The position numbers and the translations under genes were made by a program. Positions 14,190 to 40,199 of a DNA stretch of 42,867 nt are shown here, in pieces. Source of the DNA: Draconibacterium orientale (GTDB taxonomy: Bacteria; Bacteroidota; Bacteroidia; Bacteroidales; JAIFNL01); the NCBI GenBank assembly GCA_022729915.1, contig DZBP01000008.1, forward strand, positions 1-42,867, read 5' to 3'. Each line of letters starts with the position of its first letter. Position 1 is the first letter of the stretch. The notes under the pieces are model-generated. The model was not told the DNA's origin. It searched no databases and saw only the letters and a list, made by a program, of their open reading frames with translations.

Positions 14190-14282
14190 CAGTAAAAAAT
14201 TACTGTACGACTTGCGTAAAATTACTGTACGACTTGCGTAAAATTACTGCAAAAAAAATCAAAAAAACAGTATAAAATTACC
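14190..14282 (+). promoter_or_regulatory. Operator-like repeat array upstream of HTH gene 1
   Basis: A perfect 16-bp palindrome CAGTAA-N4-TTACTG (14190-14205) overlaps a 22-bp direct repeat (14196-14217 and 14218-14239), followed by a third partial unit (14240-14249). Each unit carries AAAATTACTG, and two end in CTTGCGT, so the sites recur every 22 bp, about two helix turns. A weaker site, CAGTATAAAATTACC, lies at 14268-14282. The same word CTTGCGTAAAATTACTG occurs upstream of the paralogous gene at 20813-21082. The array is immediately upstream of the promoter, as expected for an activator or autoregulatory operator. Confidence 0.6.
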
Positions 14283-14305
14283 TACAAAAACAGTACTAAT
14301 AACTA

Positions 14306-14336
14306 TTGATTACTTTTATTTAAGAATGTAATTTTG
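14306..14336 (+). promoter_or_regulatory. Promoter of HTH gene 1
   Basis: TTG (14306-14308), a 20-base spacer, then TAATTTTG (14329-14336) followed by TATCAA. The paralogue's promoter has the same 20-base spacer and the same TATCAA, which supports both. The leader is about 65 bases and has an AAGGAA/TTCCTT hairpin. Confidence 0.6.
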
Positions 14337-14409
14337 TATCAAATAAAAAGAGGTAAATAAGGAAGCCCTAAAGTTTCCTTTCAATATAAGGACATTAAAA
14401 ACTAAAATT

Positions 14410-14685
14410 ATGAAATTTGTAAGAAATTTAACCCCACAAGAAAAAGCTAGTTTATACGAATTGATGCGTAAAAGCACTAGTTTTAAAGTTCGCCAAAGAG
14501 CTCACGCTATTCTTTTGAGCGCGAAAAAACATAGAATCGACCAACTTTCTGACATTTTTGATGTGGACAGAGATACAGTAAGTGAATGGTTGAATCGCTG
14601 GGAAGTAAAAGGTTTGAGCGGCTTAATCGATGCTCAACGTTCTGGTCGTCCACGCAAAAAAGATTTAGAAAACGCAGAAGCTTAA
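14410..14685 (+). CDS. Stand-alone helix-turn-helix protein, IS630-transposase N-domain type (paralogue 1)
   Basis: A 91-residue protein consisting only of a DNA-binding region. Residues about 25-83 match the helix-turn-helix of IS630-family transposases: VRQRAHAILLSAKK, LSDIFDVDRDTVSEWLNRW, then the GL-GL-D and SGRPRK tail. The DDE catalytic domain is absent and no remnant is seen after the stop. About three quarters of the first 83 residues are identical to the protein at 20813-21082, with the central helices almost unchanged. It has its own promoter and an upstream array of repeated sites, and ends at a hairpin terminator, so it looks like a retained, independently expressed gene rather than a transposase fragment. 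I infer a DNA-binding regulator that may control its own promoter. A hairpin without a T-run (14721-14747) lies after the stop. Confidence 0.8.
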   Translation: MKFVRNLTPQEKASLYELMRKSTSFKVRQRAHAILLSAKKHRIDQLSDIFDVDRDTVSEWLNRWEVKGLSGLIDAQRSGRPRKKDLENAEA

Positions 14686-14838
14686 TCGTTTTTAGCAAAC
14701 TGTTTTCTATAAAAACAACCTCAAGTATTTGATATTCAAAAACTTGAATTAAGATAAAAATTACTCAAAATTAAAATATTTCAATCAGATTTTTTTTTGA
14801 TTGATACCCTAGATTTAATTGTGTGTGTGTGTTTATTC

Positions 14839-14875
14839 AGCCTGGCAGCTACCTAAATGTCAGGCTTTTATTTTT
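14839..14875 (+). terminator. Rho-independent terminator of HTH gene 1
   Basis: Stem AGCCTGGCA (14839-14847) with TGTCAGGCT (14858-14866), one G-U pair, 10-base loop, then TTTTATTTTT. A (GT)6 tract at 14821-14832 precedes it. Confidence 0.65.
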
Positions 14876-14882
14876 CAAAAAA

Positions 14883-14912
14883 AATCCCTTCAAAAAAAAA
14901 TTTGAAGGGATT
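14883..14912. terminator. Strong bidirectional terminator before lysA end
   Basis: Perfect 12-bp stem AATCCCTTCAAA / TTTGAAGGGATT around six A residues, with A-run and T-run on the two sides. It sits 4 bases from the lysA stop and serves lysA on the minus strand. Confidence 0.8.
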
Positions 14913-14916
14913 TTTT

Positions 14917-16074
14917 TTATTGTAAAATATCGGAATAATAAGCTTTTGCAAAATCTTTCAAATTATAGGCTGACGCCATCACTTCACCGTAAGCACCTGC
15001 ACTTCGTATCGCAACCAAATCGCCACGTTGTGCTTCGGGTAGTTTAAAATCTTTCACAAACACATCAGAGCTTTCACAAACCGGACCAACAATGTCGTAA
15101 ACCGAATCTTGTTTGTCAGAAGTCAAGCTTTCTATTTTATGAAATGCTTGATACAGAGCTGGTCTAATTAAATCGTTCATGCCAGCATCTAAAATCAAAA
15201 AGTTTTTGCTATTTCCTTTTTTAACGTACAACACCTTAGAAATTAAGCTTCCACTTTGTGCAATTATCGAGCGACCAAGCTCAAAATGAACAGTTTGTCT
15301 GGGCTTAAGTTTTAAATTGTCGGCAAAAATTTTAAAGTATTCTTCAAAACGAGCTGTTGCGTCTTCGTCGGGATTTTCGTAGCTGATTCCTAAACCACCA
15401 CCAACATTAACATGCTCTATTTCAGTTTGTTGAGCTACAAAAATATCCTGAATTTCGTTTATTCTAATACACAAATCTTTAAATACACTCAAATTGGTTA
15501 TTTGCGAGCCAATATGAAAATGTATTCCAACTAATTGTATGTTTTTCAGAGGTTTAATTATTTTGAGCAATTCGGGCAAATCTTCATAATTTACACCAAA
15601 TTTGTTTTCGCTCAAACCGGTTGTAATGTGTTTGTGTGTTTTAGAATCCACATTTGGGTTGATACGAATGGCAATTTTTGCCAATTTTCCTTCTTTATGA
15701 GCAATTTGATTTATTACTTCTATTTCAGGAATGGATTCGCAGTTGAAGCTAAAAATTCCACTATTCAATCCAATTTTTATCTCCTTATCTGTTTTTCCAA
15801 CACCAGCGAAAGCAATTTTGCTGGGTGAAAACCCATTTTCGAGTGCTTTTAATACCTCATTGCCACTCACACAATCAGCTCCAAAGCCATTTTTTTGAAT
15901 TAATTCTAAAATTCGGTTGTTAGAATTGGCTTTTAAAGCATAATGAACCGAAAAATTGTATTTTTCGCTTGCATTTTTTACAGTTTCGAGCGTTTTTTGT
16001 AATAATTGAACATCGTAAAAATAGAATGGAGTTTCTATTTGCTCAAATTTTTTAATTAAAGTTTCTGAAAACAT
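14917..16074 (-). CDS. lysA: Diaminopimelate decarboxylase LysA
   Basis: A 385-residue PLP enzyme that decarboxylates meso-diaminopimelate to lysine, the final step of lysine synthesis, in the cytoplasm. The PLP lysine is in VHYALKAN near residue 48; the phosphate-binding and substrate regions are HFHIGSQI and GGGLGISY; the second active-site part contains GPVCESSD and GAYGEVMASAYN. The length is a little short of many homologues (about 400-420) but all motifs are present. It lies 69 bases downstream of lysC on the same strand, so the two are probably co-transcribed and give the first and last steps of the pathway. Confidence 0.93.
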   Translation of the reverse strand: MFSETLIKKFEQIETPFYFYDVQLLQKTLETVKNASEKYNFSVHYALKANSNNRILELIQKNGFGADCVSGNEVLKALENGFSPSKIAFAGVGKTDKEIKIGLNSGIFSFNCESIPEIEVINQIAHKEGKLAKIAIRINPNVDSKTHKHITTGLSENKFGVNYEDLPELLKIIKPLKNIQLVGIHFHIGSQITNLSVFKDLCIRINEIQDIFVAQQTEIEHVNVGGGLGISYENPDEDATARFEEYFKIFADNLKLKPRQTVHFELGRSIIAQSGSLISKVLYVKKGNSKNFLILDAGMNDLIRPALYQAFHKIESLTSDKQDSVYDIVGPVCESSDVFVKDFKLPEAQRGDLVAIRSAGAYGEVMASAYNLKDFAKAYYSDILQ

Positions 16075-16143
16075 AACTTTTTAGTTAATAGTTTTTTATA
16101 TTAAAATTAATTTTTCAAATTTAATAAATAAATTGTATTAAAA

Positions 16144-17457
16144 CTACGAAAACAAATGTTTGCTCAATAATTCTAAAGCTGCTTGCTTGTCTTTTGTATT
16201 GATTAAGAGCGAAATATTGTGCTTGCTACCACCGTAAGAAATCATTCGTAGTGGAATATTTCCCAATGCTTCAAAAACTTGAAGAGCTACTCCGGTTTTT
16301 TCGGCAATAAAGTTACCTACCACACAAATAATTGTTTGGTCGTGTTCCACAGTAATGTTTGAGTACTTTTCAAGCTCATATTCAATATTTTGCAAATTTT
16401 TAATGTTATCGATAGTTACTGAAACCGAAATTTCGGAAGTTGTAATCATATCAATAGAAGTTTCGTATTTTTCAAAAGTTTCAAACACTTTTCGTAAAAA
16501 ACCGTGTGCCAAAAGCATTCGAGCCGAATTGATTTTGATGGCTGTAATTCCATCTTTTGCGGCTACCGCTTTAATTCCATCGCCCGTTTCATCGCGTGTA
16601 ATAAGCGTTCCGAGCGCATCGGGTTGGAGCGTATTTTTTAAAAGCACCGGAATATTTTGCAATTTAGCAGGTAAAACGCTTGCCGGATGCAAAATTTTTG
16701 CGCCAAAATAAGCCAACTCTGCGGCTTCATCAAACGAAAGTTCTCTAATGGCACGAGTATTTTTGACATAACGCGGGTCGTTGTTGTGAAAACCATCAAT
16801 GTCTGTCCAAATCTGGATTTCTTCAGCTTTGATGGCAGCTCCAATCAACGATGCCGAATAATCACTTCCGCCACGCTGCAAATTATCAATTTCGCCGTAC
16901 ACATTTTTAGTTATAAAGCCTTGTGTTACAATAATTTCTGCATCAGGAAAAGCTTTTATTTCACGTTTTAAATTTTCTTTGATGTAAAAATAATCCGGTT
17001 CGTCATCTTTACCAATTCTCATAAAATTTAAAGCACTTACAAGCACTGCATTCACTTTATTTTCAACAAGATGCAAGTGAAATAAGTTGGTTGAAATAAT
17101 TTCACCTTGTGCCAAAATTCGTTTTTCGGTACGAACAGTAAAAGGAGAATCAACTAGCGATTTAAGTGTCTCGAAAATATTGATTAATATATAGTTAGCA
17201 TCTTTTTTGTACTGTTCGGTTTTGTATAATTCGTCTAAAAAAATGGTGTAGCGTTTTTCCAAATTTTCAATTTCCTTAATCGCTTCTTCCTTTTGCTTTT
17301 TTTCAGCTAAATTTGAAATTTCCACAAGTTTGTTTGTAGTGCCTGAAACCGCAGACAAAACAACAATTTTGCGATTTTTGTCGCAAATAATCTGAGCTAC
17401 ATTTTTCATTCTTTCGGGCGAGCCAACCGATGTTCCTCCAAATTTTAGAACTTTCAT
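16144..17457 (-). CDS. lysC: Aspartate kinase LysC (monofunctional)
   Basis: A 437-residue kinase that phosphorylates aspartate, the entry to lysine, diaminopimelate, threonine and methionine synthesis. The N-terminus KFGGTSVG is the nucleotide-binding signature; other kinase motifs are QGFITKN, LQRGGSDYSA and WTDIDGF-NDPR. The last 140 residues form a pair of ACT-like regulatory domains (GITAIKINSARMLLAHGF, ISVSVTIDN, ISYGGSKHNISLLI), so feedback inhibition by lysine or threonine is expected. There is no fused homoserine dehydrogenase. It is the first gene of the likely lysC-lysA operon. I found no lysine riboswitch upstream; the leader holds repeat copy C instead. Confidence 0.94.
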   Translation of the reverse strand: MKVLKFGGTSVGSPERMKNVAQIICDKNRKIVVLSAVSGTTNKLVEISNLAEKKQKEEAIKEIENLEKRYTIFLDELYKTEQYKKDANYILINIFETLKSLVDSPFTVRTEKRILAQGEIISTNLFHLHLVENKVNAVLVSALNFMRIGKDDEPDYFYIKENLKREIKAFPDAEIIVTQGFITKNVYGEIDNLQRGGSDYSASLIGAAIKAEEIQIWTDIDGFHNNDPRYVKNTRAIRELSFDEAAELAYFGAKILHPASVLPAKLQNIPVLLKNTLQPDALGTLITRDETGDGIKAVAAKDGITAIKINSARMLLAHGFLRKVFETFEKYETSIDMITTSEISVSVTIDNIKNLQNIEYELEKYSNITVEHDQTIICVVGNFIAEKTGVALQVFEALGNIPLRMISYGGSKHNISLLINTKDKQAALELLSKHLFS

Positions 17458-17498
17458 AATTTTTCTTTTTTTTTGTATTTTTAAAATACGATTTTTGA

Positions 17499-17637
17499 AT
17501 TAAGCACCAGTGCTATTTTAATTTGAGCAAGTCTTTTGTAATCAAATAGTTTTTAAGCACTTAGCAAAATGAAATATACAATTTAATTTGGCTTACTATT
17601 TAAAAGTTAAACTAAGTAGTAAAGCAAATTTAATTGT
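17499..17637 (-). repeat. Dyad repeat family, copy C (longest)
   Basis: The first part (17499-17570) carries TTAAGCACCAGTGCTATTTTA, TTTTGTAATCAAATAG and TTTTTAAGCACTTAGC and is the reverse complement of copy A. The second part is an inverted repeat with 21-base arms, 17578-17598 and 17617-17637, matching at 18 of 21 positions. It occupies the middle of the 468-base gap 17458-17925 upstream of lysC; the rest of that gap is A/T-rich with nothing else I can support. Confidence 0.65.
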
Positions 17638-17925
17638 GCATTTTATTCTATCAAATATTTATAAATTAATCGATTACAAATATATTTATTTCGAATAAAA
17701 TAGTAATTATTTTTATTTTTGAGGTATTCACAACAGAAATTTCATTTACACTTCTATAAAAAACCCCGCAGAATAAAAAACAATTTAAGACCTACTAATT
17801 TATTTCAAAAAAAATTGCAACTACAAAAGAGTAATTGCAATTTAAAATCATTTTGGGCTCAAAAATATAAAATATTCTCCAATTTTATACTTTTTCTTTC
17901 AATTTGTAAGTTATTTTTTTGTTAA

Positions 17926-18978
17926 TTAGTTCAAATCCACATTTCCATATTTGGTTTCAATATCAATAGTTGCTTTTGCAGCTTTATCGTTACCTACTAA
18001 ACCCCAGTATTTTGTGCGTGTAGTTTCTTTTATTTTACTCAATTCTTTTGAGTCTGGCACATTTATGTTAGCATATTGAGCTTCAGCATTCAGCTTATAC
18101 GAAACAGTAGGGTCAATTCCCAAATTAATTGAACCATAAGAATTTACGATTTCAATTTTCTTAAAATCGTTTGAAATTTTTTCAACACCTGTGTTGGTAT
18201 ATTTTGTTTCGAGTTTTAGAATTTGCTTTACTAGCTCAATTTCAATGTCTGCATAAGCCGAAGTGGTTTTAAAAGCATTGACTGTTCCTATTTTGTAACT
18301 ATCATATTTTGAGTCAGCTACCATTAAATTAACCGATTTAACGCCCAATTTTGAGTATTTTGAACTCGATATAATTGCATTTGCATCGCCAATTGATAAT
18401 TTTGAATAACTCAATTCCAATTTTAAATAATTGCAATTGTCTATTCTACTGCTTTTTGAGTATTGTAAGTTTACAATTCCGTAAGGCTTAGAATTGTCGC
18501 CCGAAAGTGTATTTATTTTAAGAGCGCCATATTTTACCGTTACGTTGAACTTATTAGAAAGTTCATTGATAAATACATCGCCAAATTTATTTTCGAGTTT
18601 TAAATATAAATTTTTTGGCATTTTAACTTTGTAATTAATGCTAAATTCTACATTATTAAAACTACCTTCCAAATCGGTACGTCCAAAAATATCATCACCA
18701 GATTTAGAGAGACTTACCGAAATTTTTTTCATAACTTCCTCGGCTTTCGATGCACTTGAAGCATCAACTTTGATAAAAACTTCAATTTGAACAGAGTTCT
18801 TGTCCCAATTTTCAATGTCGATATTACCGTATTTATTTTCTAAATTTACAACCGAATTATCTGTTGTAGTGAATGTTTCTTGCAATTTTTTAGTAATTTC
18901 TTCGGCATTAATTGTTACAACAAAAATAAGCTGAAAAATCACCAACAAGAAGAGCTGATAAATTTGTTTTGTTTTCAT
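17926..18978 (-). CDS. Exported DUF4097-like beta-repeat protein
   Basis: A 350-residue protein from the ATG at 18976-18978, which gives a good signal peptide (MKTKQIYQLFLLVIFQLIFVVTINAEE); an upstream TTG start would put 17 extra residues before it and is less likely. The mature part is a chain of short beta repeats: LENKYGNIDIENW, LENKFGDVFINEL, VKYGALKINTL, LSYSKLSIGDA, SSKYSKLGVKSV, ETKYGNVDLN. This ladder resembles DUF4097/putative adhesin proteins, which usually form a beta-helix. It should be periplasmic or surface attached. It is the last gene of an apparent ECF sigma, anti-sigma, DUF4097 operon; such trios are frequent in Bacteroidota, and I infer it is a target or sensor part of the same envelope-stress unit. 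Confidence 0.75.
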   Translation of the reverse strand: MKTKQIYQLFLLVIFQLIFVVTINAEEITKKLQETFTTTDNSVVNLENKYGNIDIENWDKNSVQIEVFIKVDASSASKAEEVMKKISVSLSKSGDDIFGRTDLEGSFNNVEFSINYKVKMPKNLYLKLENKFGDVFINELSNKFNVTVKYGALKINTLSGDNSKPYGIVNLQYSKSSRIDNCNYLKLELSYSKLSIGDANAIISSSKYSKLGVKSVNLMVADSKYDSYKIGTVNAFKTTSAYADIEIELVKQILKLETKYTNTGVEKISNDFKKIEIVNSYGSINLGIDPTVSYKLNAEAQYANINVPDSKELSKIKETTRTKYWGLVGNDKAAKATIDIETKYGNVDLN

Positions 18979-19050
18979 GGCTTTATATTTAAATAATTTA
19001 TAATTTACTTGTATTGAATATATTATCAAGCAGGCAGAGTAAAAAAAATG

Positions 19051-19566
19051 CTAGCAATTTTCTTTTACCTTAGCTATTACTTTGTTCAAAAATTCAGAAC
19101 GCTCTTGCATATTCATAATCATTGCATTGATTATCAATTTATTCTGGCTATTTTGCCTTAGCTCATTTTCGAGCTCGTTGTAATTGGTTTCAAAGTTTTT
19201 TAGTTCGTTCAAAATTTCATTTTTATTAATATCTGAATTTTTGCAATCCAATTGTTTGAACTCCAAAAGTTCTTTGGTAAAATTATCTTCGTAGTAATCT
19301 TGAACTTCATAAAAATCTGAATTTGCCAATTTAATTTGATAATTTGGAGTTACGTTTTTATTCAAACCATTATTTAGCAATGTAGCCAAAACAGCTGAAA
19401 AAATTAAAAAAATAAAAACCGCCGCAAAACTGTATCTTCTTTTAATTCTGAAAACTGTTTTTGTCGATTTTTGAGCTTCCATTTTTTGCATAAAACGATT
19501 GAAATGCTCAGCATCTGGTTCTTCCGAACTAAATAATTCTTTGTTATTTTTTATAAACTCTTCCAT
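19051..19566 (-). CDS. Membrane-anchored anti-sigma factor-like protein
   Basis: A 171-residue protein using the ATG at 19564-19566 (the longer frame begins with TTG). The first 55 residues are soluble and acidic, then RIKRRYSFAAVFIFLIFSAVLATLLNN gives one membrane segment with positive residues on the cytoplasmic side, followed by about 95 residues outside the membrane rich in Lys, Glu and Asn (LENELRQNSQNKLIINAM). A short cytoplasmic part, one membrane helix and a periplasmic helical part is the usual plan of anti-sigma factors. I see no ZAS zinc motif (HxxxCxxC). It follows the ECF sigma gene and precedes the exported protein. The assignment rests more on order and topology than on motifs. 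Confidence 0.6.
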   Translation of the reverse strand: MEEFIKNNKELFSSEEPDAEHFNRFMQKMEAQKSTKTVFRIKRRYSFAAVFIFLIFSAVLATLLNNGLNKNVTPNYQIKLANSDFYEVQDYYEDNFTKELLEFKQLDCKNSDINKNEILNELKNFETNYNELENELRQNSQNKLIINAMIMNMQERSEFLNKVIAKVKENC

Positions 19567-19630
19567 TTTGTCAATTTTTAGTAATATATATGGTAAAATT
19601 GGTTTTTCGTAATGAGCCAACTTAATTGGG

Positions 19631-19700
19631 TTTTTTATTTTAGCAAATGCTTAAAATTCATTTGATTACAAAAAAAGATGCTCCTAATAAAATAGCACTA
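19631..19700 (-). repeat. Dyad repeat family, copy D, inside the sigma-factor operon
   Basis: Blocks TTAAAATTCATTTGATTACAAA and AATAGCACTACCGC match copies A and C. It fills the 131-base space between the sigma-factor gene and the anti-sigma gene. Its right end overlaps the sigma-factor stop codon (19698-19700), so the repeat appears to have supplied it. Confidence 0.55.
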
Positions 19701-20237
19701 CCGCTTTTTTTCGTTCAAAATTGTAATGAGCTTTTGTTTAGCTCTTGTAAATTGCGACCTTGAGGCAGATGCTGTAATTCCAAGTATTTCAGCTATTTCG
19801 CTATGGTCGTAACCTTCGAGCAAATAAAGTGAGAAAACGATTCTGAAACCATCAGAAAGCTTTTTCATAGCTTCTTTAATTTCTTCAACTTGCTCATTTA
19901 CCGACAGTTCAAATGAAAATTCATCGTTCTCGCTACTTACATCATGCTTTTCTTTGAGTTCGTCAAATTTTACTCGCTTTTTTTTCAAAAAGTCAAGTGA
20001 TTTATTAATGACAATCCGTTTGAGCCATGCTCCAAAGCTTACTTCACCTTTGTAAGAATCGAAGTTTAAAAAAGCAGAAATAAAAGCTTCTTGCATCAAA
20101 TCCTCCGTCTCAATTCTTGAATTTACTATTCGTAAAGCTGTGTTGTACATAGCTTTATAGTACAATTTATAGATTTCAAATTGAGCTTTTTTATCGCCAA
20201 GTTGTAATCTTTGTAATAAATCGCTTTGCTGAATCAT
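19698..20237 (-). CDS. ECF-type RNA polymerase sigma factor
   Basis: A 179-residue sigma-70 relative of the extracytoplasmic-function group; the ATG at 20235-20237 is preferred to a GTG five codons upstream because an AG-rich stretch precedes it. Region 2 is seen as FEIYKLYYKAMYNTALRI, ETEDLMQEAFISAF and FGAWLKRIVINKSLD; region 4 as FSLYLLEGYDHSEIAEILGI and SRSQFTRAKQKL. It should direct RNA polymerase to a small set of promoters when released by its anti-sigma factor, here probably the next gene downstream. The stop codon lies in repeat copy D, so the last residues (EKKR) could have been altered by the insertion. Upstream is the 575-base A/T-rich gap. Confidence 0.92.
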   Translation of the reverse strand: MIQQSDLLQRLQLGDKKAQFEIYKLYYKAMYNTALRIVNSRIETEDLMQEAFISAFLNFDSYKGEVSFGAWLKRIVINKSLDFLKKKRVKFDELKEKHDVSSENDEFSFELSVNEQVEEIKEAMKKLSDGFRIVFSLYLLEGYDHSEIAEILGITASASRSQFTRAKQKLITILNEKKR

Positions 20238-20675
20238 ACTTTTTTCTTCCACTTGCTTTCTATTTTAAATGACGATGAGAAATTAGAAAAGCTGCAAACA
20301 ATTGCATTTTTTCTTATTTTTTTTTAAAAGAATAATATTGTTTCTAGCTGTTTGTTTTTTTGCAATAATTTAATTTTTTTGCTCTAAACAAACAAAAATA
20401 AATTAAATGATATTCGCAATATATCAACTAATTTCAATTTTTTTACAAAATCTAACGGCTATTGCATTTTTTTAATGAAAGTGAGTCTAATTGTAATATT
20501 CTAATTTTCAAACAATAAAGAAAATAATTCAATAATTACTTTTATTACACTTTCAAAATGTAAAAAAATATAAAAGTTGAAGAGAAACTAAATATCAAAA
20601 ACAACTAATTATCAATAAGTTAATAAAAAAAATGGGTCAAATTGGAATTCTAAAATTATAAAAAAAAGTGAAATA
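20238..20675. other. A/T-rich gap with no visible gene
   Basis: Between the sigma-factor start and the terminator of HTH gene 2. It is low-complexity and holds no conserved reading frame; the sigma-factor promoter should be here, but I see no good TTG-N19-TAnnTTTG match near its start, which would be in keeping with autoregulated ECF promoters of another type. Confidence 0.4.
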
Positions 20676-20708
20676 AAAAAAGCTACCTTTTTTGAAGGTA
20701 GCTTTTTT
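20676..20708 (-). terminator. Terminator downstream of HTH gene 2
   Basis: Stem AGCTACCTT / AAGGTAGCT with a 5-base loop, extended by A-run and T-run (20676-20689 and 20695-20708). It is symmetrical and so works on both strands, but its neighbour on the minus strand is the HTH gene ending about 105 bases away. Confidence 0.7.
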
Positions 20709-20812
20709 AAAAAAGCAAAAGATTTTAACATTTTACCAAAATCAAATTTTTAATTATTTTGGCTTGTATTGAAAATTTTCAATCGTCTGTTTTTTTTGTA
20801 TATAACAGAAAA

Positions 20813-21082
20813 CTAAGCTTCTACTTCGTTTTCTTTGCGTGGACGACCTGAGCGAGGAGCATCGGCTAAGCCTTGAATTCCTTTTTCGCTCCATCTTCTA
20901 AGCCATTCGCTTACGGTGTCTCTATCAACTTCAAAAATATCTGAAAGCAAATCAATTCTGATTTTTTTTGCACTTAATAAAATTGCGTGAGCTCTTTGAC
21001 GCACTTTAAAACTATTGCTTGTTCTCATTAATTCGTACAAGCTAATTTTTTCTCTACCATTTAATTTTGTAACGTATTTCAT
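20813..21082 (-). CDS. Stand-alone helix-turn-helix protein, IS630-transposase N-domain type (paralogue 2)
   Basis: An 89-residue paralogue of the protein at 14410-14685 with the same layout: KVRQRAHAILLSAKK, LSDIFEVDRDTVSEWLRRW, GIQGLADAPRSGRPRK. No catalytic DDE domain follows. Differences cluster at the N-terminus and in the linker after the recognition helix, whereas the helices stay nearly unchanged. It has its own promoter, the same operator words upstream and an independent terminator. It points toward the other copy across about 6 kb. Like its partner it is best read as a small DNA-binding regulator descended from a transposase domain. Whether both bind the same sites, or one another's promoter, cannot be told from sequence. 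Confidence 0.8.
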   Translation of the reverse strand: MKYVTKLNGREKISLYELMRTSNSFKVRQRAHAILLSAKKIRIDLLSDIFEVDRDTVSEWLRRWSEKGIQGLADAPRSGRPRKENEVEA

Positions 21083-21209
21083 AACTCAAATTTTTTAGTT
21101 GTTTATTTTTTCTTTTTTTAGTTTGCCCCTCGTTTTATGAAAGGAAGCTTATTATGTGTTAGAAATTCTAAGAATTTCATTTCTAATTTTCTTTCTGATT
21201 TTCTTGATA

Positions 21210-21240
21210 CAAAGGTAATGTGTTTGAAAAGCCTATACAA
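21210..21240 (-). promoter_or_regulatory. Promoter of HTH gene 2
   Basis: On the minus strand TTG (21238-21240), 20 bases, TACCTTTG (21210-21217), then TATCAA. Spacer and following bases match the paralogue's promoter. The leader is about 120 bases. Confidence 0.6.
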
Positions 21241-21264
21241 GAGAGCTTTTTACTGTTTTTTTAT

Positions 21265-21333
21265 GTAATTTTAAGGGGGTAAAAGATGAGTTGAAGCAGT
21301 AATTTTACGCAAGTGTTAGGTAATTTAACGCAT
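21265..21333 (-). promoter_or_regulatory. Operator-like sites upstream of HTH gene 2
   Basis: Minus-strand CTTGCGTAAAATTACTG (21297-21313) is identical to the word in the array upstream of HTH gene 1. A variant GCGTTAAATTACC (21319-21331) lies 21 bp farther upstream and another, CCTTAAAATTAC (21265-21276), 34 bp downstream toward the promoter. The rest of the 334-base gap 21083-21416 is the leader of HTH gene 2, its promoter and a terminator. Confidence 0.55.
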
Positions 21334-21416: not shown

Positions 21417-22055
21417 TTATTTATCTACCAGTTTATTTTTCATTGCATGAGCTACAAGTTGCACACTATTTTTGCAACCGGTTTTGGCGAGTAACTTACT
21501 TTTATGTCCAATAACTGTTCGCTCGCTGATAAAAAGTTCTTCTGCTATTTCGTCGTTTGACATGCCTTCGCAGATAAGTGCTAAAACTTCAATTTCGCGT
21601 TTTGTGAATTGCTCTTTGTCTTCTTTTGGCGCCATTTTTTTTGTAAAAAAAGTCCAAAGTTCTTCCGAAAAATAATTTTGACCTTGGCTAATGAGTGTAA
21701 TGGCTTTCTCAAGTCCTTCTTTTGTAATGTTTTTAATCAAATAGCCTTTTGCACCGGCATCTATCATGTTTTGAACGTAATTATCGTCCACAAACATCGA
21801 AAGTGCAATGATTTTAAGATTTGGATTTTTGTCTAAAGCTTTTTTTGTTGTCTCAATTCCGTTAATTCCGGGCATTTCAATATCCATAAAAACCATATCG
21901 GCATCAGGATATTTATCGAGCAAATCTAAAAGATCTTCTCCGTTAGAACTTTCAGCAATTATTTTAGTATTTTTAAGCCTATTTATGGTTGTAATTAGTC
22001 CTTTCCGAAAAATTTCGTGATCATCAACAACTATAATCCTAGTTTCTTTTTTCAT
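21417..22055 (-). CDS. NarL/FixJ-type response regulator
   Basis: A 212-residue two-component regulator from the ATG at 22053-22055 (an in-frame TTG lies three codons upstream). The receiver domain (1-120) has the acidic pair Asp11-Asp12, the phosphorylated residue Asp58 in VFMDIEMPG, and KGYLIKN with the conserved Lys. A LuxR-type helix-turn-helix follows at about 145-205: FTKREIEVLALICEGMSNDEIAEELFISERTV-GHKSKL. It should bind DNA after phosphorylation by the kinase encoded 314 bases upstream on the same strand. Targets are not indicated. Confidence 0.93.
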   Translation of the reverse strand: MKKETRIIVVDDHEIFRKGLITTINRLKNTKIIAESSNGEDLLDLLDKYPDADMVFMDIEMPGINGIETTKKALDKNPNLKIIALSMFVDDNYVQNMIDAGAKGYLIKNITKEGLEKAITLISQGQNYFSEELWTFFTKKMAPKEDKEQFTKREIEVLALICEGMSNDEIAEELFISERTVIGHKSKLLAKTGCKNSVQLVAHAMKNKLVDK

Positions 22056-22206
22056 GTGTTTCAATATTTTAGAGATGTAGCAATGTGCTAATTACAACTA
22101 TTCATTGCTTTTTTTGCGTCTCAAATTAAAAATAGCCTTAGCTGTTTTAATATTCGATTCTCCTAAGTTAGTTATAAAAAAGCAAAATGCCTTTTACATA
22201 ACTTTA

Positions 22207-22369: not shown

Positions 22370-23872
22370 TCAGAAGTTAATATCAACGACTACGCTTACT
22401 CCTTGACCTAAAACACTCTTAATCATACAAGTACCATTTACAGATTTTGCTCTTGTAATGATGTTGTTTAAGCCCATTCCTTTGGTTCTGCTGTTCATAA
22501 CTGCCTGAACATCAAAGCCTACTCCATCGTCTTCATAAAGTAATTGCAACCGTTTATCTTTTTCGTTGAGAGTTATGTTAATGTGCTGTGCTTTAGCATA
22601 TTTTATTGTATTGTTTATCAATTCTTTAACAATTCTGTATAGAACAATTTCTACTGTTTTGTTAAAATGAGCAGAACTAACATTGGGGTCGAAAAAAACA
22701 TCAATATGTTCTACAACATTAATTTTTTGGCAAAAACTTTCGATTGCAGCAATTAAACCAAAATCCCTTATCACACTAGGCATCAGATTGTTAGAAATAT
22801 CTTTAGCACTTGCGATAGCTTCATCTATCATTTCGGTAGCTTGCAGTATCAACTCAGACTTGTCTTTTTTCTTCAAATCTTTGTCATCTAGCTGATTGAT
22901 AAAAAGTTTTATAGTTGATAGTAAAGGTCCCAAACCATCGTGCAAATCTTTTGCAAAACGCTTTCGTTCACGTTCTTCGGTTTCTATAATGGTTCTGAGA
23001 ATCATTTGCTCGTTTTCTTTTCTATCCACAATGTCATGAACCATAAGCATAACTTGCTTATTACTTTCACTTTGCAAGATTTTACTCCGAATCTGAACCG
23101 GAATAATTCTACCGTCTTTAGCCACCGCATAATCCATCGCCAAAGGACTCAAACGAGCTCCATTTTCAAAGAAATTACGAATTTGGTCAAAGTAATTATT
23201 AAAAATCATGCTATCTTGGCTAAAACTTTTCAATTCGTCCAATTCGTAGCCAAAGTACTCAGTTACAGCAGGATTAATTTGCACAAAGTGCATTTTAGAA
23301 TTTATAATAAAAACGGGATCGTTGCTATTTTTAATAATATAATTTAAGTTGGTTTTAGACTCGGCATTTTGACGGTCTGTAGATTGTTTGTTTAAAAAAT
23401 CCGAAATTATTTTTTGAATTGTTCTAATATCCGTTTTAAAATTTTCGGTATAAACAAAAGCTGCTTCGTTCTCAAGCGATATAAAACCAATGCTTTTTTT
23501 TGACCACAAAATAGGAAAAATAACCGATGCTTGAGTTTTTCTGCCAGCAAAAAAAGTTCTAAAATATTTTTCCGAAATTTCTTTTTCTCTGATAATAAAA
23601 GCCTTACCTTCTTTTAAGCGAGCAATAAAAGGATAATCAATGCTATTGATGTATTTTCGATACTCAATAATATGTTTTGAGTAAAAAGTAGCTATTTCAG
23701 CAGTAGAATCATTGGTATCAAAGGCATAATATAAAATAGTATCAAAGCGAAAATGTCGAGCAATAATGCGCAATAAACTCGGAAAAGCATCAATAGATTC
23801 ATTTTCAAGCATCAAATTGAAAAGTAAATGATAAAATTTTGTTTCCCTAATATTTTTTTGAGTTAAATCCAT
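22370..23872 (-). CDS. GAF-PAS sensor histidine kinase (HisKA_3 type)
   Basis: A 500-residue kinase without membrane segments. Residues about 15-155 look like a GAF domain; a PAS domain follows at about 165-290 (IIKNSNDPVFIINSKMHFVQINPAVTEYFGY in two parts, DGRIIPVQIRS). The dimerisation/phosphoacceptor region has His311 in DLHDGLGPLL, typical of NarX/DesK-type kinases, and the ATPase domain has NNTIKYAKA (N-box) and GVGFDV with GMGLNNI. It should phosphorylate the NarL-type regulator encoded next on the same strand. Lack of membrane helices implies a cytoplasmic signal, which the GAF/PAS domains would sense. Confidence 0.9.
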   Translation of the reverse strand: MDLTQKNIRETKFYHLLFNLMLENESIDAFPSLLRIIARHFRFDTILYYAFDTNDSTAEIATFYSKHIIEYRKYINSIDYPFIARLKEGKAFIIREKEISEKYFRTFFAGRKTQASVIFPILWSKKSIGFISLENEAAFVYTENFKTDIRTIQKIISDFLNKQSTDRQNAESKTNLNYIIKNSNDPVFIINSKMHFVQINPAVTEYFGYELDELKSFSQDSMIFNNYFDQIRNFFENGARLSPLAMDYAVAKDGRIIPVQIRSKILQSESNKQVMLMVHDIVDRKENEQMILRTIIETEERERKRFAKDLHDGLGPLLSTIKLFINQLDDKDLKKKDKSELILQATEMIDEAIASAKDISNNLMPSVIRDFGLIAAIESFCQKINVVEHIDVFFDPNVSSAHFNKTVEIVLYRIVKELINNTIKYAKAQHINITLNEKDKRLQLLYEDDGVGFDVQAVMNSRTKGMGLNNIITRAKSVNGTCMIKSVLGQGVSVVVDINF

Positions 23873-34363: not shown

Positions 34364-34747
34364 TTATTCGTCATCAATTTCTATCATTTTGAAAGGAATT
34401 CTCAAAATAGATTGATAATCTTCGCCAGCTTCGAGCATATCTTCGTCGTCTTCTTCATAATGCCAATTAATAACAATTTCTTTATTAGCTTGTGTTACTT
34501 TTTCCAGTTTTTTAAACACATCTAAGATACATTTCGACGAACTTGTATTAAAATATTCGAGCTGAATATTAACTTCTGTTTTATCAAGAGGACTAGAAGC
34601 ATATTTATCAAGCCAATCAACTAAGGGTTTGTAAAATTCAATTGAATTTTCAGGTATCGAACGTCCTTTAATTTCGAATATACCTTCCTCTGAATTGAAA
34701 TTTACTGTTGGTGTTTTTGGAGTACCTTCTATAAAAATTGCTTCCAT
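34364..34747 (-). CDS. siaC: SiaC-like protein (DUF1987)
   Basis: A 127-residue cytoplasmic protein of the DUF1987 family. In Pseudomonas aeruginosa SiaC is phosphorylated on Thr68 by SiaB, dephosphorylated by SiaA, and in the unphosphorylated form activates the diguanylate cyclase SiaD. Here Thr68 falls in the conserved YFNTSSSK (Asn67, Thr68, Ser69-71), and the beta segment before it (TEVNIQLEYFN) and the helix after it fit a STAS-like fold. The acidic C-terminus (YEEDDEDMLEAGEDY) is notable. It lies 203 bases downstream of siaB on the same strand. No diguanylate cyclase is seen, so its output partner is unknown. Confidence 0.85.
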   Translation of the reverse strand: MEAIFIEGTPKTPTVNFNSEEGIFEIKGRSIPENSIEFYKPLVDWLDKYASSPLDKTEVNIQLEYFNTSSSKCILDVFKKLEKVTQANKEIVINWHYEEDDEDMLEAGEDYQSILRIPFKMIEIDDE

Positions 34748-39401: not shown

Positions 39402-40199
39402 ATGTTTTTTCATTCCAATATAAAGTTTTTGCGAAAACGAAAAAAACGCACACAAGACGATGTAGCTTTAAAACTCGATATGAAGCGTTCAACCTTAAGT
39501 GGTTACGAAAATGAAATAGCACAACCGAACATTCCGGTTTTGATTGCATTTTCCGATTATTACAAGATTTCGATTGATACGCTTATCAAGATTGACCTCA
39601 GTCAATTATCTGAATTTCAGATGACTGAACTTGAAAATGGCTTCGATGTCTATATAAAAGGAAACAAATTGCGCGTTTTGGCTACAACCGTTGATTCAGA
39701 AAACAACGAAAACATAGAACTTGTCCCAGAAAAAGCCAAAGCCGGCTACATGCGTGGATTTGCCGACCCCGATTTTATAAAAGAATTGCCCAAATTTCAG
39801 ATGCCATTTTTATCTAAAGACAAGAAATACAGGACGTTCCAAATTTCTGGCGATTCCATGCTTCCTATTCCCGACAAATCGTGGGTTACTGCCGAATTTG
39901 TACAAGATTGGGAATTTGTGAAAGACAATGAATCGTACATTATTTTGACACTCGACGATGGAATTGTGTTCAAAGTAGTTGAAAATAAGTTAATTGAAGA
40001 AAAAAAATTGCGTTTGCACTCGCTCAATCCAGACTATAAATCGTACGACTTGCCGGCTAGTGAGATTAAAGAAATTTGGAAATTTACACATTATATAAGT
40101 AGTGAATTGCCAGAACCGGAAATTCCTAAAAATAATATAGTAGAAAAAATTGCTTATTTGCAACGCGAAGTTGAAAAAATGAAACTTTCTGTTTATTAG
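39402..40199 (+). CDS. LexA/CI-like regulator with self-cleaving S24 peptidase domain
   Basis: A 265-residue regulator. The N-terminal helix-turn-helix (residues 5-65, RTQDDVALKLDMKRSTLSGY and YENEIAQP) is of the Cro/CI type. The C-terminal part is a peptidase S24 fold with Ser152 in SGDSMLPI and the Lys general base Lys191 in VFKVV. An Ala114-Gly115 bond (KAGYM) sits before the domain in the place where LexA and CI are cut. The residues fit RecA-induced self-cleavage, which would relieve repression after DNA damage. The C-terminus has an extra charged helix (PKNNIVEKIAYLQREVEKMK). It diverges from the SRAP gene. Regulators of this kind occur widely in Bacteroidota; the target set is not known. 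Confidence 0.85.
   Translation: MFFHSNIKFLRKRKKRTQDDVALKLDMKRSTLSGYENEIAQPNIPVLIAFSDYYKISIDTLIKIDLSQLSEFQMTELENGFDVYIKGNKLRVLATTVDSENNENIELVPEKAKAGYMRGFADPDFIKELPKFQMPFLSKDKKYRTFQISGDSMLPIPDKSWVTAEFVQDWEFVKDNESYIILTLDDGIVFKVVENKLIEEKKLRLHSLNPDYKSYDLPASEIKEIWKFTHYISSELPEPEIPKNNIVEKIAYLQREVEKMKLSVY

Follow-up and report, generated by a model that had tools for sequence, protein, structure and literature searches.

What binds the repeated sites in front of two short genes of Draconibacterium orientale? The window considered here, 42,867 nucleotides of contig DZBP01000008.1 (contig C218 of the 3.5-Mb assembly GCA_022729915.1, referred to as G000, which is 83% complete and divided into 299 contigs), contains two genes for proteins that consist of a helix-turn-helix (HTH) domain only. 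Copy 1 (14410-14685, forward strand) encodes 91 residues and copy 2 (20813-21082, reverse strand), which lies directly 3' of a response regulator gene, encodes 89. An earlier reading of the sequence (the original prediction), which had the positions and sizes of both open reading frames (ORFs) right, proposed that these proteins bind the repeats upstream of their own genes. The evidence assembled below favours a different answer: the arrays are predicted to be activator sites of the neighbouring two-component system, with the two HTH-only genes as its outputs, a reading to which we assign a probability of about 0.7.

An operator array and promoter shared by two genes

The two genes are preceded by the same succession of sites, the positions of which are given relative to the -7 box (TAnnTTTG) of each promoter. 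The sequence CTTGCGTAAAATTACTG, the upstream similarity on which the original prediction was based, is found exactly at both: on the forward strand it makes up sites D1 (14211-14227, core at -113) and D2 (14233-14249, core at -91) of copy 1, and on the reverse strand site D2 of copy 2 (21297-21313, core at -91), where D1 is represented by the core GTTAAATTAC at -112 (21320-21329, reverse strand), 21 bp away, as had been described. Nearer to the gene, each array has a proximal element of the common form AAAATTACnTnnAAAAACAGTA, comprising a core at -57 and a CAGTA at -38; this reads AAAATTACCTACAAAAACAGTA at copy 1 (14274-14295, forward strand) and AAAATTACATAAAAAAACAGTA at copy 2 (21251-21272, reverse strand). 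The promoters themselves consist of a -33 TTG and a -7 box, found on the forward strand at 14306-14308 and 14329-14336 (TAATTTTG) for copy 1, and on the reverse strand at 21238-21240 and 21210-21217 (TACCTTTG) for copy 2.

Neither the proximal element nor the constant distances of the sites to the -7 box had been part of the original description, the remaining details of which were recovered as stated: three AAAATTACTG units begin at 14196, 14218 and 14240, a spacing of 22 bp, and a perfect CAGTAA-N4-TTACTG palindrome is located at 14190-14205 (strand not applicable), where 0.11 matches with at most one mismatch would be expected in the window. This palindrome, CAGTAA-AAAA-TTACTG, is an extra distal site of copy 1, seen in this species only.

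Genome-wide analysis of G000 took the form of pattern searches. There are four exact matches to CTTGCGTAAAATTACTG in the 3.5-Mb genome, two at copy 1, one at copy 2 and one within recA, and none that differ by a single mismatch. The recA coding sequence in fact shares an exact 20 bp with the copy 1 array (CTTGCGTAAAATTACTGCAA; G000:C44:10766-10785, L005:1501-1520). This match is not kept in the recA genes of two congeners (CAAGCTTTGAGGAAAATC... and CAAGCATTGAGAAAAATT...), and was rejected as a genuine site in favour of coincidence, though an exact 17-bp match of this kind is unusual. The observation that the two HTH-only genes share an array and promoter is correct and far beyond chance.

Conservation within the genus

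Two further genomes of the same genus, G001 and G002, were compared with G000, providing five promoters from three species. Both copies are present in G002, in unchanged order; in G001 copy 2 is present, and the contig stops short of the place that copy 1 would occupy. When the upstream regions of the five genes are aligned, only blocks can be matched, these being distal sites of the type (C)TTGCGTAAAATTACTG and the proximal AAAATTACnTnnAAAAACAGTA, and the DNA between them has diverged. The repeats have been kept at both copies in related species. All five promoters conform to the TTG-N20-TAnnTTTG first noticed in the window, which fits the primary-sigma promoter of Bacteroidota (TTG-N19-21-TAnnTTTG), and in all five CAGTA begins exactly 38 nt before the -7 box. 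Cores resembling GTAAAATTAC are found at -111 to -113, -90/-91 and -57, apart from the -112 core of copy 2 in G002, which is too degenerate to score (one of the five promoters). Leaving recA aside, exact matches to TTGCGTRAAATTAC in G000 and G002 occur solely at the two HTH-only genes; the proximal element is found exactly nowhere else across the three genomes, whilst the D2 site of G001 has one mismatch.

This pattern bears on the idea that the repeats were left behind by gene duplication, or are former transposon ends, and have no present function. It is true that the proteins descend from IS630 transposases and that copies 1 and 2 are paralogues. However, it is only the site blocks that align between the copies, the spacing from the -7 box varies by no more than 1-2 bp, and a complete array in another genome (G051, described below) has no transposase-type gene alongside. 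Furthermore, a search for repeats around both genes revealed no pair framing either of them as a transposon end; the inverted repeats that do occur nearby are terminator-like or AT-rich low-complexity pairs. We consider a relic origin very improbable.

Not all HTH-only genes of the genus have an array. A tandem pair of paralogues (t1/t2) on contig C242 of G000, 56-62% identical to copy 1 and with ratios of non-synonymous to synonymous substitution (dN/dS) of 0.03-0.05, has a recognition helix near-identical to that of the window copies, yet lacks the array. The pair (G000:C242:17645-18277; L035:2646-3299) is conserved in G001, and G002 has both genes, further apart. It lies 3' of a gene resembling that at 34364-34747 of the window, and adjoins genes that look like moaE and mobA.

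Arrays in genomes without HTH-only genes

Copy 2 is the last of three consecutive genes on the reverse strand. The first encodes a PAS/HisKA_3 histidine kinase (22370-23872; PF07730 and PF02518 matched within 22373-23872), and is directly 5' of the second, which encodes a NarL/LuxR-type response regulator composed of a receiver (PF00072, E 3e-24) and a GerE domain (PF00196, E 3e-18; 21417-22064). The regulator is the proposed array-binding activator, and the kinase its proposed sensor partner. The order of kinase and regulator is the same in G001, G735 and G051. Since members of the response-regulator family are widespread in the order (117 of 393 genomes at E<=1e-50), an exclusive co-occurrence of the regulator with HTH-only genes was rejected; the same abundance means that the array can be sought in genomes that lack HTH-only genes.

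One such genome is G051, in which a profile search detected no HTH-only gene at E<=1e-14. It nevertheless has the full four-part array, at -112/-90/-58/-38 from TATCTTTG, in front of a gene encoding a receiver-only protein and starting 6 nt past the stop codon of the response-regulator orthologue. On the other strand, the D site reads CCGGTAATTTTACGCAA, with one mismatch in 16, and is followed by further cores and CAGTAATTAAGTCTCTT. Among 1043 distinct TAnnTTTG boxes in the examined loci, only the genus promoters and that of G051 score in at least three of the four registers. Over the 1.13 Mb of G051 that were searched, about 45% of the total, there is no second array, no other box scoring above 2 and no other D site with up to two mismatches.

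Five more genomes that lack HTH-only genes have partial arrays 3' of the regulator. D-type sites are located 14 nt past the regulator stop codon in G735 and G688, the CAGTA at -38 is present in G735, G550 and G057, and single cores are seen at -90 in G054 and at -57 in G688. Among the seven loci at which a receiver-only gene comes after the regulator, six have a D-type site or a CAGTA at -38; one weak match was obtained from the 21 remaining loci that lack HTH-only genes. None of the array-bearing genomes outside the genus is among the seven with matches to the HTH-only family in the profile search (E<=1e-14). The receiver-only genes 3' of the array in G051 and G735 (L182:690-4202; L158:1-1337) are themselves followed by hydrogenase-type (Fe_hyd_lg_C), DRTGG-like or NuoE-like genes, the last of these recognised by eye; speculatively, such neighbours hint at a redox or hydrogen-related ancestral signal.

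The presence of a full array in G051, where HTH-only genes are not detectable, is hard to square with array-binding by the HTH-only proteins. According to that model, which is the one originally put forward, copies 1 and 2 would bind the arrays and so auto- and cross-regulate their own genes. In its favour, the arrays stand directly 5' of HTH genes and, within the genus, are unique to these; the array-free paralogues t1 and t2, with their near-identical recognition helix, argue in the other direction.

A second lineage with a different operator

A distinct set of HTH-only genes is present in G036, a 4.8-Mb genome from another family of the same order, which has ten matches to the family, nine of them of the HTH-only type. 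At all seven operator-bearing HTH-only genes in this genome, TAnnTT(T/C)G is preceded by TTGGGT at a distance of exactly 39 nt, the DNA in between being unrelated, and a second unit, TG(G/C)GTG or CGGGTG, is found 21-23 bp further upstream in six of the seven. These promoters have the -7 box and lack the -33 TTG; this absence, together with the fixed 39-nt spacing, fits activator-dependent promoters. The pair pattern ACCCAAN{13,15}ACACSC has seven matches in the genome, six of which correspond to these genes, and three were obtained with the reversed pattern as a control; the pattern was drawn from these same genes, and is informative only on its near-absence elsewhere. The seventh match (contig C214) overlaps GC-rich coding sequence and was discarded as probably due to chance. 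Two lineages hence have the HTH-only family under promoters of fixed geometry, and the sequences of the sites differ between them.

The only close response-regulator match in G036 is 48-50% identical, and is encoded directly 5' of one of the seven operator-bearing HTH-only genes. Behind it, the HTH-only genes L050 and L052 are arranged in tandem (L127:5657-6373, contig C50), and both have diverged recognition helices.

That seven HTH-only genes of G036 have one type of operator could again be taken to indicate that their products bind it. However, the operator differs between the genus and G036, whilst the HTH-only recognition helix, VDRDTVS, is common to both. Moreover, the G036 members L050 and L051 retain the common operator despite a divergent HTH recognition helix, which points to one shared trans-acting factor. 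Taken with G051 and the tandem paralogues, these observations make binding of the repeats by the HTH-only proteins quite unlikely, and this part of the original prediction is probably wrong.

It is the helix of the response regulator that changes with the operator, reading RT(V/I)(I/V)GHK in the genus and in its array-bearing relatives and RTVERHR in G036. In NarL, the equivalents of the changing positions are presumably Lys188/Val189, which read bases. From the geometry of the sites, the gene neighbourhood and this covariation of helix and operator, we infer that the response regulator binds the array and activates the promoter.

Several points weigh against this assignment. The regulator family is common, and most of its loci have no array; the G036 regulator, at 48-50% identity, ranks below a group of 57-60% elsewhere, leaving its orthology uncertain; and a single change underlies the covariation of helix with operator. 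In addition, loci outside the genus were identified through their proximity to the response regulator, and with such sampling a third factor in the same genomes could also be the one that binds. Such a regulator would be common to these Bacteroidota, and its link to the response-regulator gene one of gene order only. Regulator-adjacent loci are indeed the only ones sampled in most of the genomes, and adjacency is no proof of binding, but the single array detected in about 45% of the G051 genome is the one beside the regulator, and the regulator's helix changes where the operator does. We regard a third factor as unlikely, and favour the response regulator as the predicted ligand of the array.

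Origin of the HTH-only proteins

Copies 1 and 2 are 74-75% identical at the protein level, in keeping with an initial estimate of three-quarters. In copy 1, an IS630/Tc1-type N-terminal domain is followed by a GRPRK tail. Both proteins match the Pfam families HTH_29, HTH_23 and HTH_28 above the cut-off, and residues 29-88 align to the NCBIfam IS630 transposase model NF033545 (E 8e-13), in a match confined to positions 1-60 of 299. The catalytic part is absent, just as expected of proteins said to comprise only a transposase-type DNA-binding domain, and the whole-protein scores against this model are 46-48 bits, the cut-off being 100. Identity to annotated plasmid IS630 transposases is 34-43%.

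There is no catalytic DDE domain, in the same or a frameshifted ORF, in the 231 bp between copy 1 and lysA, and the approximately 560 bp downstream of copy 2 contain no ORF of 60 aa. A two-ORF IS630 element, expressed through a frameshift, was accordingly rejected as the origin of the window genes, given that no ORF B follows them. Split IS630 elements do exist in G1006 and G881. At L124:1501-2170 and L126:1450-2488, IS630-type elements are divided into an HTH ORF of 138-147 aa and a separate DDE-like ORF; these are either frameshifted elements or decayed copies. A phage or viral origin was considered by searching viral contigs and phages, with zero matches, and the matches found on plasmids were set aside, being mostly IS630 transposases with less than 60% identity. 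When roughly 1000 Bacteroidota genomes were searched with the family profile, only transposase-type or weak matches were found beyond the genus and G036. In a phylogenetic tree, the HTH-only genes are separate from transposases, with one member unresolved (93/88).

Orthologues from different species of the genus have a dN/dS of 0.05 (copy 1) or 0.00-0.02 (copy 2), and the HTH-only genes are under strong purifying selection. Judged by their sequences, the proteins are DNA-binding domains of IS630 (Tc1/mariner-type) origin that have been domesticated, and they are likely to act as transcription factors. Of the proposal that a domesticated transposase domain had been turned into a family of regulators, the conserved family of IS630-derived DNA-binding domains, with its gene order kept, can be retained; the binding of the repeats by its members is not supported.

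The AlphaFold model (mean predicted local distance difference test score, pLDDT, of 82) has helices at residues 9-21, 25-38, 43-50 and 54-72, and a low-confidence tail that includes GRPRK. Foldseek returned no match at E<=0.001. Using VIA, TnsB, the Pax paired domains (1k78, 6pax and 1pdn) and Mos1 were found at Z 5.7-6.8, tied with sigma region 4. In fold, residues 23-79 are similar to the PAI half of a Pax paired domain (Z 6.7 for 1k78 and 6.6 for 6pax), with Z 6.4-6.7 over 54-55 residues, all below 8 and on a par with sigma region 4 and others. The modelled fold supports a PAI-like HTH and no more.

Elsewhere in the window, positions 39402-40199 encode a lone 265-aa protein which, read by eye from the sequence, resembles XRE in its N-terminal HTH and LexA/S24 in its C-terminal part.

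A proposed signalling pathway and its significance

In the mechanism we propose, a signal would be sensed by the kinase (22370-23872) and passed to the response regulator (21417-22064), leading to the activation of copies 1 and 2. Dimers of the phosphorylated regulator would occupy the GTAAAATTAC-type sites at -112, -91 and -57, together with the half-site at -38, and would bring RNA polymerase to the -33/-7 promoter next to them; the products of copies 1 and 2 may then bind DNA elsewhere. The intervals between sites, 21-22 bp and 33-35 bp, amount to about two and three helical turns, and the array ends directly 5' of the -33 box. This helical stacking, the constant distance to the -33 box and the missing -33 TTG in G036 suggest that the control exerted is activation, not repression.

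In several respects this arrangement resembles the NarL/FixJ systems, which likewise comprise a HisKA_3 kinase and a receiver-GerE regulator, with an array of short, helically phased, near-palindromic sites 5' of the core promoter and a target gene beside that of the regulator. The putative output sets it apart: in the genus and in G036 it is a DNA-binding protein derived from a transposase, and in relatives it is a protein with a receiver only, the binding being a predicted one. With IS630 transposases, the HTH-only proteins have in common the N-terminal domain and a GRPR-type tail after the HTH; they differ in having no DDE domain, second ORF or framing terminal repeats, and in being rare and under purifying selection. 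Metazoan Pax proteins are transposon-derived transcription factors (PMC10027918), and the likeness to these, which is of fold only, lies in a PAI-like, Tc1/mariner-type DNA-binding domain kept without catalysis, although the bacterial proteins have a single HTH and no RED half. TldR proteins, which are TnpB-derived RNA-guided transcription factors (PMC13418256), are also bacterial transposon proteins turned into gene regulators, but they have an unrelated fold, and the HTH-only proteins have no guide RNA.

That DNA-binding domains of transposons can be recruited as regulators of the host is well established for animals. For prokaryotes, a review of such co-option treats mainly Xre- and RHH-type factors, with no mention of IS630 (PMC8987985), and in our literature searches no description was found of IS630-derived HTH-only regulators in bacteria. 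Two-component arrays as such are nothing unusual. What appears to be undescribed, as far as these searches reach, is that the putative output is an IS630-derived DNA-binding domain. The present case is compact and conserved, tied to an identifiable signalling pair by a promoter geometry fixed to 1-2 bp across genera, and yields a short list of DNA fragments and proteins for direct binding tests. It also illustrates that an operator beside an HTH gene can be misassigned to that HTH protein unless genomes lacking the protein are examined. More tentatively, and at somewhat less than even odds, the ancestral output of the two-component system, a receiver-only protein, may have been replaced by domesticated Tc1/mariner-type DNA-binding domains acting as second-tier transcription factors; this would be a bacterial parallel to the path that led from transposase to Pax, and in G036 it would have grown to at least seven genes under operator control.

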